Below, piece by piece: positions 12,240-17,377 of a DNA stretch of 27,898 nucleotides. A program made the position numbers and the translations under genes. Position 1 is the first letter of the stretch; each line of letters begins with the position of its first letter. The DNA comes from a virus. The notes under the pieces were generated by a model. The model saw nothing but the letters and a program-made list of their open reading frames with translations, was not told the DNA's origin and made no database searches. The stretch spans positions 15,943 to 43,840 of the IMG/VR virus record IMGVR_UViG_3300008267_000919, one strand, 5' to 3'.

Positions 12240-12260
12240 GAGGTCGCATTTTGCGACCTC
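12240..12260 (+). terminator. GC-rich hairpin after the zinc-ribbon gene
   Basis: A perfect nine-base-pair stem (12240-12248 with 12252-12260) closes on a three-base TTT loop. It is GC-rich for this genome. It is followed by TTGATATTTATA rather than a T-run, so it may be a weak terminator or a 3' stabilising hairpin. It lies just upstream of the TATTTATA box at 12265. Confidence 0.5.
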
Positions 12261-12264
12261 TTGA

Positions 12265-12272
12265 TATTTATA
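12265..12272 (+). promoter_or_regulatory. TATTTATA box before the envelope gene cassette
   Basis: The octamer lies 14 bases before ATG 12287, immediately after a hairpin. This position, between a transcript end and a new gene set, is what is expected of a promoter for the three downstream envelope genes. Confidence 0.5.
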
Positions 12273-12286
12273 GGAAAACCAATTTT

Positions 12287-12688
12287 ATGAAACTTCAAAC
12301 AAGTAATAATAAAACGAACATATTAATCATTATAATTGGTATTATGGCTGCATACAATATTTTGCAAACCAAAGGTATAAAAACCGATGTATCAGCATAT
12401 AACAAAAAAATTGATTTAATACAAAAAGAAATCGATTCTGTACAGGTTTTAAATAAACAGTTAAACATACAGATCGCAAATATCGACACAGAAATTGATA
12501 AAGTTGATGGCGATATTGGTAGAGTAACAAAAAACATAACAATTATTAAAAATCAAACAAATGAAAAAATTGATGCTGTTAATGAGTTTACTTTTAGTGA
12601 CCTCGCTAAGTTTTTCTCAGACCGTTATGACGCAAGAGAAGACAGTAGTGCAGGACACAATAGTACCCCTCAAAACCCAAATCGCTAA
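12287..12688 (+). CDS. Inner-membrane coiled-coil protein, i-spanin-like
   Basis: The 133-residue protein has one N-terminal membrane segment (about 11-27, ILIIIIGIMAAYNIL), a long periplasmic coiled coil (about 38-100) and a polar tail ending NSTPQNPNR. This is the layout of an inner-membrane spanin subunit, and the next gene starts inside it in another frame, as in Rz/Rz1 pairs. Spanins fuse the inner and outer membranes in the last step of lysis of Gram-negative hosts. I chose ATG 12287 because an upstream in-frame TTG at 12251 lies in the hairpin. The lysis role is inferred from architecture, since spanin sequences are poorly conserved. Confidence 0.7.
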   Translation: MKLQTSNNKTNILIIIIGIMAAYNILQTKGIKTDVSAYNKKIDLIQKEIDSVQVLNKQLNIQIANIDTEIDKVDGDIGRVTKNITIIKNQTNEKIDAVNEFTFSDLAKFFSDRYDAREDSSAGHNSTPQNPNR

Positions 12689-12989
12689 ATTAGTCATAAA
12701 AGATTTGATCAGGGGTGATGGTGCCATTGTCGAGGTTAAAGAATTAAACAAAGTGATTGGATTAAAAGACGAACAAATCAGATTGTTTAAAGAAAAAGAC
12801 CTTTTAAAAGATCAAAAAATATCAAACTTGGAGGTAATCATTTCTAAAAAAGATGAGCAATTTTCTTTAGAAAGAGAAAAATCTGAAAAGTTATATAAAG
12901 AATTAAAGGGACAAAGAACTAAAACCTTTTTATATAAAGTTGGAACATTTGTTGGGCTACTTGCCACATCAGTATTACTTGTTAAATAA
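12561..12989 (+). CDS. Secreted coiled-coil protein with C-terminal membrane anchor
   Basis: The 142-residue protein begins with a clear signal peptide (MKKLMLLMSLLLVTSLSFSQ), followed by a charged coiled-coil region (about 45-120) and a C-terminal hydrophobic segment (about 124-141). It overlaps the previous gene by 128 bases in a different frame, a typical spanin arrangement. It lacks a lipobox Cys, so it is not a classic o-spanin lipoprotein; the C-terminal segment would anchor it instead. The signal peptide ending in Ser-Phe-Ser-Gln resembles those of Bacteroidota proteins. The next gene follows with no spacing. A role in lysis or envelope interaction is an inference. Confidence 0.75.
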   Translation: MKKLMLLMSLLLVTSLSFSQTVMTQEKTVVQDTIVPLKTQIAKLVIKDLIRGDGAIVEVKELNKVIGLKDEQIRLFKEKDLLKDQKISNLEVIISKKDEQFSLEREKSEKLYKELKGQRTKTFLYKVGTFVGLLATSVLLVK

Positions 12990-13637
12990 ATGAAAAAACA
13001 CATCACCCCACCCAATATTGCCCTATTAGTACTAGTTTTATTATTAATATTATCAGTATTAAATCCATGGGGAATAATACCCAATAGAGTAACAAACGTT
13101 CCTGTCTATGTGGTTGATTCTATACCATATCCACAGCACGATACAATACCTTTTGAAGTCGAGGTTGAGGTTGAAGTACCCGTAGAAGTTGAAGTACCAT
13201 ATACGGTTCATGATACCATATTAACCCCGGTGGATACTATGGCGATATTAAAAGATTTTTACACAAAAAATATTTCAAAAGAAGAATTAAAACTACCTAA
13301 TAATCAAGGTGTTATAAGCTTGAGTCAAACTATTACCGAGAACAAAGTAGTGTCAACAGAGTTTAATGCTAAAATAACCCCTAAAGTCCAAAAGGATACC
13401 ATTTTATTGCCTGAGCCAAAGAAAACTCAACTTTATTTTGGCGTTGTTGGGGGTGTGTCTAAACCAGATTTTATTTCAAATGTTGGTGCTGGGTTATTAC
13501 TTAAGACAAAAGAGGATAAAATATATAAATTTACAATTGGTGCCGCAAATAGATTAACCAGTGATATTAATGGTACATTCCATCCATACATGGAAGGTGG
13601 GGTGTTTTGGAAAATCAAAGCCAAAAAAAGAAACTAG
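12990..13637 (+). CDS. Envelope-spanning protein with N-terminal anchor and beta-rich C-terminus
   Basis: The 215-residue protein has one N-terminal membrane segment (about 9-27) and a Glu-Val-Pro repeat (EVEVEVEVPVEVEVPY, about 56-71) suggesting an extended stalk. A linker follows, then a C-terminal region (about 145-210) with alternating aromatic and polar strands (QLYFGVVGGVSKP, YMEGGVFWKI) like the end of an outer-membrane beta barrel. An anchor, a stalk and a beta domain could connect inner and outer membranes, as a unimolecular spanin would. It starts directly at the end of the previous gene, so it belongs to the same cassette. It could equally be a receptor-blocking envelope protein. 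No family name is recognised. Confidence 0.7.
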   Translation: MKKHITPPNIALLVLVLLLILSVLNPWGIIPNRVTNVPVYVVDSIPYPQHDTIPFEVEVEVEVPVEVEVPYTVHDTILTPVDTMAILKDFYTKNISKEELKLPNNQGVISLSQTITENKVVSTEFNAKITPKVQKDTILLPEPKKTQLYFGVVGGVSKPDFISNVGAGLLLKTKEDKIYKFTIGAANRLTSDINGTFHPYMEGGVFWKIKAKKRN

Positions 13638-15008: not shown

Positions 15009-15296
15009 ATGAAAAAGTTCGTTGAAAATAATTTCGTAATGATTGTTTTTGTTATAATCCTATTAACATTTTTTAAGGGTTGTAGTGATAGCAGAGAAAT
15101 CAAATCCATTAAAAATGAAATAAAAGCTATAAAGGATTCTACATATACAAAAACAGAATTAGGTATCATTCTAAAAATTGAAGGGCTAAGAGCTGAAAAA
15201 AGAATGATACAAGCAACAGATAGAAAAATGTTAGATGTTCAACGTCAAACACAAATTGATGAAGAATTAAAAACATTAGAAAAGTCAATCAAATAA
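15009..15296 (+). CDS. Small membrane-anchored coiled-coil protein
   Basis: The 95-residue protein has one N-terminal hydrophobic segment (about 8-23), then GCSDS with Cys25, and a charged coiled coil to the C-terminus. FFKGC resembles a lipobox but lacks the usual small or Leu residue at -3, so lipidation is uncertain. The end overlaps the next gene's ATG by one base (AATGA type), suggesting coupling to the membrane protein that follows. It is another spanin-like architecture; a role in lysis or in membrane-complex assembly is an inference. No catalytic motif is seen. Confidence 0.75.
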   Translation: MKKFVENNFVMIVFVIILLTFFKGCSDSREIKSIKNEIKAIKDSTYTKTELGIILKIEGLRAEKRMIQATDRKMLDVQRQTQIDEELKTLEKSIK

Positions 15297-16504
15297 TGAA
15301 AAATTGGTTTAATAAAAATTATAAAACAATAATAATTGCGGCATTTCTTGTCCCAATCATAACGGTAGCGATTGTATCTATCTCACACGTTACTATGTGG
15401 TATGGGATATCAAATCCAATTACATGGGCTGTATACTTATCCATTGGTATTGAGATTGCTGCCCTATCTGCTCTTGCGGCAATATCTGCTGACATGGGCT
15501 CTAAAGTATATTTTCCATTTTCAATTGTAACATTAATACAATTCATTGGTAATATATTTTTCGCTTATTCATTTATCGATATAAATTCACAACCGTTTAA
15601 AGATTGGGTTGATCTAGTTTCACCTTTAGTTTCATTTATGGGTGTTGAACCAACCGATTTTGTTGGTCACAAAAGATTCTTAGCATTTTTTGCTGGTGGA
15701 ATGTTACCAGTTATCTCTCTTTCATTCTTACACATGTTAATTAAATTTACGGAAGAAGATAAGCAACAACGTACATCCAAAGATTCTGAACCAGAAAATA
15801 AAATTGATGCTAGTGATATTGTTTCTGAGGTTTCTAGAGTTAGATTAAGTGAGAGCGACTTAAAAAAATTAGAAGAAGTTTTATTAAATCCACCAACACC
15901 AAATGAAGCTTTGGTGAAGGCTGCTGAAAAATATAAACAAAAAACCGATGATGAGATTTTAAAACAAGCTGAAAAAATAAAACAATCTCGTGAAGAGGTA
16001 TCATCAGAATCCGCGATAAATAAAGATATCGTTGAAACAGATGATAAGATAAAGCAAAAAGAAGCTTTGATAAAAATGATGGAATTGGATCAAGAACTTG
16101 GGTTATATGATGATCCAATTGATAATCCATTGATTAAAGAAGATACATACAATATTGCCAAATCAATTCAACAACCAGAGGTTGCGCCAGCTTTGTCTGA
16201 TGAAGAAGTTAAGGAAATGTTTATGGATGAATGGGAAAGAAAATTTGATTTGGTTGAAGAGGAATATGTGCCAACGGAAGAAGATATTATATTAAATGAG
16301 GAATTAAACGCCATTCAAAATGCAGTTGAAAATGAAACTATTCCGGAACCGTTTGCAATACAAGAAGAAGTTCAAAAATTTAATATAGATTTATCTTATC
16401 CACAAAAAGAAGAAGAGGAAGAATATAATACAATTGAAAATAATGATTCTTTTTGGAGGGACCATTTATCTGAAGATATGGACGAAGATGTAAAAAAAAA
16501 GTAG
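15296..16504 (+). CDS. Four-helix membrane protein with long acidic tail (zero-frame product)
   Basis: The 402-residue zero-frame product has four membrane helices (about 11-30, 42-64, 71-93, 127-149) and then a highly charged, Glu- and Lys-rich cytoplasmic region of about 250 residues. It ends in DEDVKKK followed by TAG. The stop comes directly after a run of nine As containing A-AAA-AAG, and the -1 frame continues for 94 codons without interruption as a Pro-Thr repeat and basic tail (16501-16785). So the gene is probably 496 codons with a frameshift, or the two forms are both made. No transporter or enzyme motif is recognised. Neighbours are small membrane and amidase-fold proteins. Confidence 0.8.
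   Translation: MKNWFNKNYKTIIIAAFLVPIITVAIVSISHVTMWYGISNPITWAVYLSIGIEIAALSALAAISADMGSKVYFPFSIVTLIQFIGNIFFAYSFIDINSQPFKDWVDLVSPLVSFMGVEPTDFVGHKRFLAFFAGGMLPVISLSFLHMLIKFTEEDKQQRTSKDSEPENKIDASDIVSEVSRVRLSESDLKKLEEVLLNPPTPNEALVKAAEKYKQKTDDEILKQAEKIKQSREEVSSESAINKDIVETDDKIKQKEALIKMMELDQELGLYDDPIDNPLIKEDTYNIAKSIQQPEVAPALSDEEVKEMFMDEWERKFDLVEEEYVPTEEDIILNEELNAIQNAVENETIPEPFAIQEEVQKFNIDLSYPQKEEEEEYNTIENNDSFWRDHLSEDMDEDVKKK
16492..16504 (+). other. Probable -1 frameshift site (A9-G followed by TAG)
   Basis: Nine As (16492-16500) and a G precede the zero-frame stop TAG at 16502-16504. The zero-frame codons are GTA AAA AAA AAG TAG, so the heptamer A-AAA-AAG, the dnaX-type slippery sequence, is placed correctly directly before the stop. 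Slipping back one base continues as Val-Glu-Ile-Glu into the Pro-Thr repeat. I see no clear downstream stem. Transcript slippage on A9 or a sequencing indel would give the same fusion. Confidence 0.65.
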
Positions 16505-16785
16505 AGATTGAAATAACACCTACTCCAACAGATTACATTGAACCGGAACCAATACCAACAGAGTACATTGAACCAACGCCAACACCTACTGAGTATATTG
16601 AGCCAACGCCTACTCCAACCGAGTACGTCGATCCAATTTATGAGGAAGTTGTTGAACCAACACCTACCCCTACACCGACAGTTTCAAATAAAATTTATGT
16701 GGATGAACTACCACCAAGATTACCAATAGCTGGTTTAAAAACTTTTCAAAGGAATGTTAGAAATTCAAGACGTAGAAGCATTTAA
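16501..16785 (+). CDS. Frameshifted C-terminal extension with Pro-Thr decapeptide repeats
   Basis: The -1 frame relative to the upstream gene is open from the slippery site to TAA at 16783-16785, adding 94 residues. It encodes IEPTPTPTEY-type decapeptide repeats (about 3.5 copies), then VDPIYEEVV, a second PTPTPTPT stretch and a basic end NVRNSRRRSI. It has no start codon of its own, so it is only made by frameshifting. The strong amino-acid pattern with varied third codon positions shows it is translated. TPTPTPTE also occurs in the virion-type protein at 202, which hints at a shared use such as a flexible surface linker. Its last 32 bases overlap the amidase-fold gene. Confidence 0.75.
   Translation, partial: VEIEITPTPTDYIEPEPIPTEYIEPTPTPTEYIEPTPTPTEYVDPIYEEVVEPTPTPTPTVSNKIYVDELPPRLPIAGLKTFQRNVRNSRRRSI
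16513..16626 (+). repeat. 30-base coding repeats for Pro-Thr-Glu-Tyr decapeptides
   Basis: Full units lie at 16537-16566, 16567-16596 and 16597-16626, with a partial unit from 16513. Each encodes I-E-P-x-P-x-P-T-E-Y. Units differ mainly at third codon positions. Confidence 0.8.
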
Positions 16786-17377
16786 CTTACCGAATTTAAA
16801 ATCAAAAAATAGAAAATATAAAAAAACCCAAATTCTTCTATATGACACTGGAAGAAAGTTTGATAATTTTATTAAAAAACTTAAATATCGAAAATTTGGG
16901 GATTATAAAGACATTCCACATTTCTGCATAACCAAAACTGGTGAAGTTTATAGTTTTATTGATCCAGAATACGGTTCAGAGACTTTTGGAGAGAGTAGGA
17001 TTGATAATAAACAAATAAAGATCGCCATAGAAAACCTTGGCTGGTTGAGCAAAAACACCATAAACGGTATCTACCAAAATTGGTTAGATGACGTATATAG
17101 AGGTGCCCCACATATAAGAAGTTGGAGAAATCGAATGTATTGGGACCCATATACCCCAGAGCAATTACAAGCGTTAGCGGATCTATGTTTGATACTTTGT
17201 GTTAAATATGATATAAAGTATAGATGTGTACCTTCTTCTGGATATATTGAAAACATAAAAAATATGGGTGGAATAGTTAGTAAATCAAATTTTTTGGATA
17301 TTTATACTGATATAAACCCATCGTTTAATTTTAATATATTTGAAGAAAATGTCAAACAAACAGAACACAGGTTATGA
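16754..17377 (+). CDS. Amidase_2/PGRP-fold protein with altered zinc site
   Basis: The 207-residue protein follows the N-acetylmuramoyl-L-alanine amidase (amidase_2) pattern: a first strand ILLYDTG (27-33), then IPHFCITKTGEVYSFID (54-70), IKIAIENLGWL (88-98), YTPEQLQALADLC (133-145) and GIVSKSNFLDIYTDINPSF (173-191). In active members the first strand ends in a zinc-binding His and the last motif carries GHR and the final ligand. Here these are Tyr30 and Ser-Lys-Ser, so the classic zinc ligands are not evident. It may be an endolysin variant of phages with SNF-YTD motifs, or a non-catalytic peptidoglycan-binding virion protein. It has no signal peptide. It starts inside the frameshifted extension of the previous gene and overlaps the next gene by 29 bases. 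Confidence 0.75.
   Translation: MLEIQDVEAFNLPNLKSKNRKYKKTQILLYDTGRKFDNFIKKLKYRKFGDYKDIPHFCITKTGEVYSFIDPEYGSETFGESRIDNKQIKIAIENLGWLSKNTINGIYQNWLDDVYRGAPHIRSWRNRMYWDPYTPEQLQALADLCLILCVKYDIKYRCVPSSGYIENIKNMGGIVSKSNFLDIYTDINPSFNFNIFEENVKQTEHRL

Follow-up and report, generated by a model that had tools for sequence, protein, structure and literature searches.

We identified a membrane-protein gene, encoded immediately upstream of the gene for an amidase, a cell-wall-cutting enzyme, in uncultured, mostly large phages, that carries a conserved run of nine to eleven adenines at the joint between two reading frames, and comparison of its relatives suggests that the run is probably a programmed transcriptional slippage site, allowing two proteins, one short and one long, to be made from the gene. 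The sequence analysed, referred to here as the window, is a stretch of 27,898 nucleotides (positions 15,943 to 43,840 of IMG/VR virus record IMGVR_UViG_3300008267_000919), in which the locus contains the following features, numbered from the first letter of the window.

15009 to 15296, plus strand: small protein, single membrane helix at the N-terminus, a conserved upstream neighbour (open reading frame, homologues).
15296 to 16504, plus strand: short form of 402 residues, made up of a membrane domain and an acidic tail (open reading frame, homologues).
15296 to 15760, plus strand: membrane domain with four long predicted helices and one short one (AlphaFold2, pLDDT 71; conserved, 46 sequences).
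15806 to 15937, plus strand: segment resembling the C-terminal half of TacA-type antitoxins (match to PF08681 above cut-off).
16492 to 16500, plus strand: run of nine As (A9), the proposed slippage site, which with the following G contains A_AAA_AAG (direct reading).
16501 to 16785, plus strand: extension in the -1 frame, 94 codons and a stop (open reading frame and the two tests of selection given below).
16507 to 16626, plus strand: 30-nt tandem repeat, 4.0 copies, encoding a PTPTEYIEPT-like Pro-Thr decapeptide (Tandem Repeats Finder).
16754 to 17377, plus strand: amidase (PF01510, family match), its first part, 16754-16785, shared with the end of the extension.

The joint in the window reads GTA AAA AAA AAG TAG, with the TAG at 16502-16504. 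A sequence-only reading of this DNA had drawn attention to the A9 run, the adjacent TAG, the heptamer A_AAA_AAG and a 94-codon -1 extension lacking a start of its own, all of which are present: beyond a stop at 16471-16473, the -1 frame is open through the run to a stop at 16783-16785, 32 nt inside the amidase gene, and no start codon lies near its beginning. Joined to the short form, the -1 extension gives a fusion of 496 residues. At least nine consecutive As occur at a single intragenic site of the 43.8-kb record, which is the window joint; its remaining sites of this kind lie at gene ends or, judged by the list of open reading frames, apparently between genes. Pro-Thr repeats (such as TPTPTATPTNTPTPTPT) are also found in two open reading frames at 202-1029 and 1057-2037 of the window, so linkers of this kind appear to be common in the phage and not particular to the frameshift tail. 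Elsewhere in the window, three successive small membrane or exported proteins that are spanin-like by eye are encoded at 12251-13637, upstream of a sigma factor; the third, the one that was searched, has no family match.

To place the joint among its relatives, public viral contigs were searched with three queries: the membrane protein, an alignment of it and an amidase alignment. The 123 amidase-bearing sequences, window included, formed 70 clusters at 95% DNA identity, and L087 was counted separately (for a total of 71) because its membrane domain is unlike those of the rest of its cluster. At the same joint as the A9 run of the window, 59 of the 71 clusters have nine to eleven As (A9 in 2, A10 in 45 and A11 in 12), and no run-bearing lineage has a run of seven or eight there. 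Of the 71, 54 encode the short form, another frame leading on to the amidase start; in these the stop comes 0-12 nt past the run, or 58 nt past it in L124. Of these short-encoding clusters, 53 have the same frame relation, flanks compensating for run lengths of 9, 10 and 11. A further five (L053, L114, L118, L120 and L125) encode the fusion in a single frame, and all five keep A10. The 12 clusters with no run comprise eleven related short single-frame genes and L092.

These counts bear on the possibility, raised earlier as the main alternative, that an indel in the A9 run has split a gene that is truly in one frame. Homopolymers are error-prone and some relatives are indeed single-frame, but a sequencing or assembly error would have to recreate the same frame relation in 53 clusters, across runs of 9 to 11 and with a stop at most 12 nt past the run, and A10 is also assembled in lineages where everything is in frame. 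The recurrent frame relation refutes an indel artefact at the level of the family, leaving error with a negligible probability. Aligned homologues retain the A9-A11 run and the change of frame, as the sequence-only reading had proposed to check, although the heptamer itself is not the conserved unit. Single-frame homologues, which it had named as a potential refutation, do exist, both in a run-less related clade and in the five fused A10 lineages, but the two-product case stands: the conserved run, the frames and the selected extension of the relatives support its proposal that one gene gives products of 402 and 496 residues.

The extension might instead be a gene of its own, on which ribosomes re-initiate once they have finished the short form, directly behind whose stop it lies. 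However, an ATG occurs in the reachable first part of the frame in just 1 of 54 lineages (ATG, GTG or TTG in 17), and five lineages encode the fusion as one frame, which makes re-initiation extremely improbable. Reassignment of TAG was also considered and rejected: further zero-frame stops follow soon after, by eye, and TAA or TGA stands in that place in other lineages.

On the amidase tree, a quick tree in which many inner branches are weak, a single gain and a single loss suffice to explain the run, and the fused state calls for five separate changes. An earlier amidase tree, built without six of the no-run rows, placed the run-bearing rows and L092 in one group with full support. Amidases of the run-bearing clade extend down to about 51% identity with that of the window, and no cultured phage with this amidase was found in INPHARED. 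For the membrane gene, a single distant match turned up, in a 462-kb uncultured phage that lacks the run. Searches of genome contigs for a host returned no match to the amidase and, for the membrane domain, only a 3.3-kb contig in an Alphaproteobacteria MAG, which likewise lacks the run and may be a mis-binned phage. The Shine-Dalgarno signal at gene starts of the loci is slight (22 of 622, against 16 when shuffled), which we take to fit a Bacteroidota host.

Substitution patterns indicate that the extension is under purifying selection, as had been proposed from its sequence in the window. Upstream of the amidase ATG its dN/dS is 0.26, compared with 0.24 for the last 100 zero-frame codons (29 related pairs), and 248 of 463 differences in the extension fall at third positions (13 disjoint pairs, p 3e-19). 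Of 59 extensions, 40 contain an LYWE-like motif outside the amidase overlap, in many cases with NPNQVIYDLENN-VIIP after it; L114 and similar fused relatives encode the motif in frame. The Pro-Thr repeat is not the essential feature, as repeats of this type occur in a minority of extensions and tails are found behind two membrane domains that are unrelated to each other. We did not count the C-terminal R-N-V-x-N-S-x-R-R as evidence because it lies inside the amidase overlap; the sequence of the amidase start could by itself account for this conserved basic C-terminus. The extra tail of the long form is probably disordered.

How the second frame is reached is a separate matter, and here we infer that the polymerase is more likely than the ribosome to slip at the run. 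Three features by which transcriptional slippage sites are recognized come together at this locus: a conserved run at the joint that is at or above the slippage-prone length of about nine A or T, a second frame that is coding and selected, and avoidance of runs of such length in other genes of the same genomes. The length threshold near nine for slippage-prone runs is that of Baranov et al. (PMC1088944). Five observations favour the polymerase, none of them decisive alone: the length of the run, its avoidance elsewhere, the lack of RNA structure, the A10 of fused lineages and the frames of L124.

The sequence-only reading had instead proposed programmed -1 frameshifting by the ribosome on A_AAA_AAG, or A_AAA_AAN, within the run, followed by translation of the extension. 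Many phage tail genes contain ribosomal -1 sites, as does E. coli dnaX. A suitable heptamer is in phase both in the window (A_AAA_AAG) and in run-bearing short-encoding relatives (A_AAA_AAN), the direction is right in 53 of the 54 short-encoding clusters, and every run includes sequence that allows a -1 ribosome slip; ribosomes are, moreover, reported to slide on poly(A) (PMC4363877). For such a slip, however, seven As, or six and a G, suffice, yet every run-bearing joint has at least nine.

The treatment of runs in other genes also differs from what ribosomal slippage would lead one to expect. Among 638 other open reading frames from the same loci (441 kb), we counted 12 A9 runs and none of A10 or longer, with none within 35 nt of a stop; the presence of such runs at the joint in 59 of 71 clusters thus greatly exceeds chance. 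Against expectations from a synonymous-codon shuffle of 630 other open reading frames (433 kb), observed and expected counts were 501 and 523 for A7, 110 and 180 for A8, 12 and 69 for A9, and 0 and 55 for A10 or longer; runs of A5 to A7 are near expectation and A9 is about 6-fold depleted. A7 runs in the phase on which ribosomes could slip show no avoidance (178 observed, 189 plus or minus 14 expected). Long-run avoidance may stem partly from DNA replication slippage. Set against synonymous shuffles, the depletion of A runs of eight or more in coding regions shows a sharp threshold, and T runs of six or more are also depleted in the coding regions of all loci.

Nor did pseudoknot-free folding reveal a downstream stimulatory RNA structure in 54 loci (mean z -0.14 over 55 nt and -0.24 over 80 nt). 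The run persists whichever frame is encoded, which favours the polymerase. In four of the five fused lineages, the frame that loss of one A opens has a stop no more than 7 nt away, whereas a stop in the -1 frame, as -1 ribosomal shifting would require, is equally close only in L053; in L114, L118 and L120 a ribosome could arrive at the near stop only by a +1 shift. Finally, the long frame of L124 is reachable only through the opposite shift, which a -1 ribosomal slip does not supply. We therefore regard ribosomal frameshifting as the weaker of the two readings and as unlikely.

A different kind of slippage, during replication of the phage DNA, could vary the length of the run and so toggle the tail by phase variation. 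Homopolymer runs this long mutate easily, both encoded states occur, and the run of L060 differs in length from those of its close relatives. Yet in the other multi-contig clusters run length is identical in 13/13, 7/7, 6/6 and 5/5 contigs (consensus contigs), 54 of 59 lineages encode the short state rather than both freely, and the fused state of L114 accompanies an altered flank with the run unaltered. Because run length is the same across the contigs of a cluster, L060 excepted, switching at the DNA level is very unlikely. L060 itself has A10 where L059 and L061 have A11, with about ten other differences over the 900 nt compared, and its fusion requires the loss of one A or the gain of two; a single added A does not give it.

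Under the polymerase-slippage reading, which we prefer, RNA polymerase would add one A at the A9-A11 run in a fraction of mRNAs and, in some lineages, would drop one. An mRNA made without a slip would give the short membrane-anchored protein, ending just past the run, and an mRNA longer by one A would give the long protein with its tail (496 residues in the window). As the A9 run of the window is the shortest seen, slippage there may be weak.

The position of the two ends relative to the amidase raises a further possibility. In 71 of 71 clusters the end of the long form falls between -24 and +44 relative to the amidase ATG, so as to overlap or abut the gene, and short forms with a run end 105-420 nt upstream of that ATG. 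Ribosomes completing the long form would terminate on or beside the amidase start codon, and those completing the short form well before it. From this we infer that the slipped fraction probably raises amidase translation by coupling; judged by position, slippage may thereby set amidase translation. The locus may plausibly serve as a lysis or envelope cassette, though we hold this at somewhat below an even chance. More speculatively, the site could act as a slippage dial in such a cassette of double-stranded DNA phages, governing the ratio of isoforms and, via coupling, the dose of amidase.

The AlphaFold2 model of the window protein places the long predicted helices at residues 9-35, 41-64, 68-93 and 122-163. 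At cut-off, neither Pfam nor PHROGs gave a known family for the membrane domain or a holin-family match for the membrane protein, and the domain model has no fold match in the PDB; two uncharacterised viral models match it, with 58 and 54% identity. Two types of membrane domain, T1 and T2, precede the same kind of tail, run and amidase. Homology between them was rejected (hhalign probability 1.4%); the structure model of T2, whose loci include L057, L058 and L113, is poor (pLDDT 66). L087 and L081 have amidase and tail in common but different membrane domains, and such near-identical downstream DNA with different N-terminal domains suggests that the domain has been swapped between phages. Since tail and amidase are joined to unrelated membrane domains, the conserved unit seems to be a membrane anchor, a tail attached at a slippage joint, and an amidase. 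The TacA-like segment follows the membrane domain in the window, L001, L002, L053 and L059, and so with both domain types. Its match covers profile positions 36-79 of 80, and the RHH DNA-binding part of a TacA-type antitoxin is absent; one possibility is that the segment acts on an acetyltransferase toxin as a decoy or binder.

Known examples of programmed transcriptional slippage come from IS elements, secretion systems, Thermus dnaX and RNA viruses; our searches of an open-access library turned up no description of tailed phages using it as a conserved device. The putative slippage site described here is retained through a whole clade of mostly large phages and joined to unrelated membrane domains. 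Genes of this kind will be split by gene callers. In addition, the natural variants (A9, A10, A11, short-encoded, long-encoded and run-less) offer a ready experiment for separating slippage by the polymerase from slippage by the ribosome.

Several known systems share parts of this arrangement. In lambda gpG/gpGT and E. coli dnaX, too, a single gene supplies two products at a fixed ratio, and the A_AAA_AAG of the window recalls them, but both are ribosomal, with a heptamer that is enough and usually with stimulators, and the phage gene is no tail chaperone. In Thermus thermophilus dnaX, slippage gives a short form from an encoded long one (PMC5009743), as we propose for L053, L114, L118 and L120, although that is an unrelated bacterial replicase gene. 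The tssM1 gene of Citrobacter rodentium has an A11 run a few bases before its stop; when an A is added the long form results, and both forms and their ratio are required (PMC4256274). The phage gene resembles it as a membrane-protein gene with an A run shortly before the stop and a long form that would arise from an added A. The proteins are unrelated, however, and the T6SS site is sporadic whereas that of the phages is kept through their whole clade; no overlap of tssM1 with a downstream hydrolase is described, whereas the phage gene overlaps or abuts its amidase. Yersinia tssM3, which is long-encoded and thus the opposite of tssM1, resembles the five fused phage lineages (PMC4256274). In Shigella spa13-spa32, a C-terminal extension made by slippage overlaps the next gene and strongly affects its expression, and in both this pair and mxiE the end of a slippage extension reaches the next gene (PMC5009743), as does the end of the phage extension. 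The Shigella examples are plasmid type III secretion genes in which the effect was measured, whereas in the phages it is the geometry that is seen. That the geometry of spa13 goes with so strong an effect on the next gene leads us to propose that slippage in these phages could both make two isoforms and feed ribosomes to the amidase.
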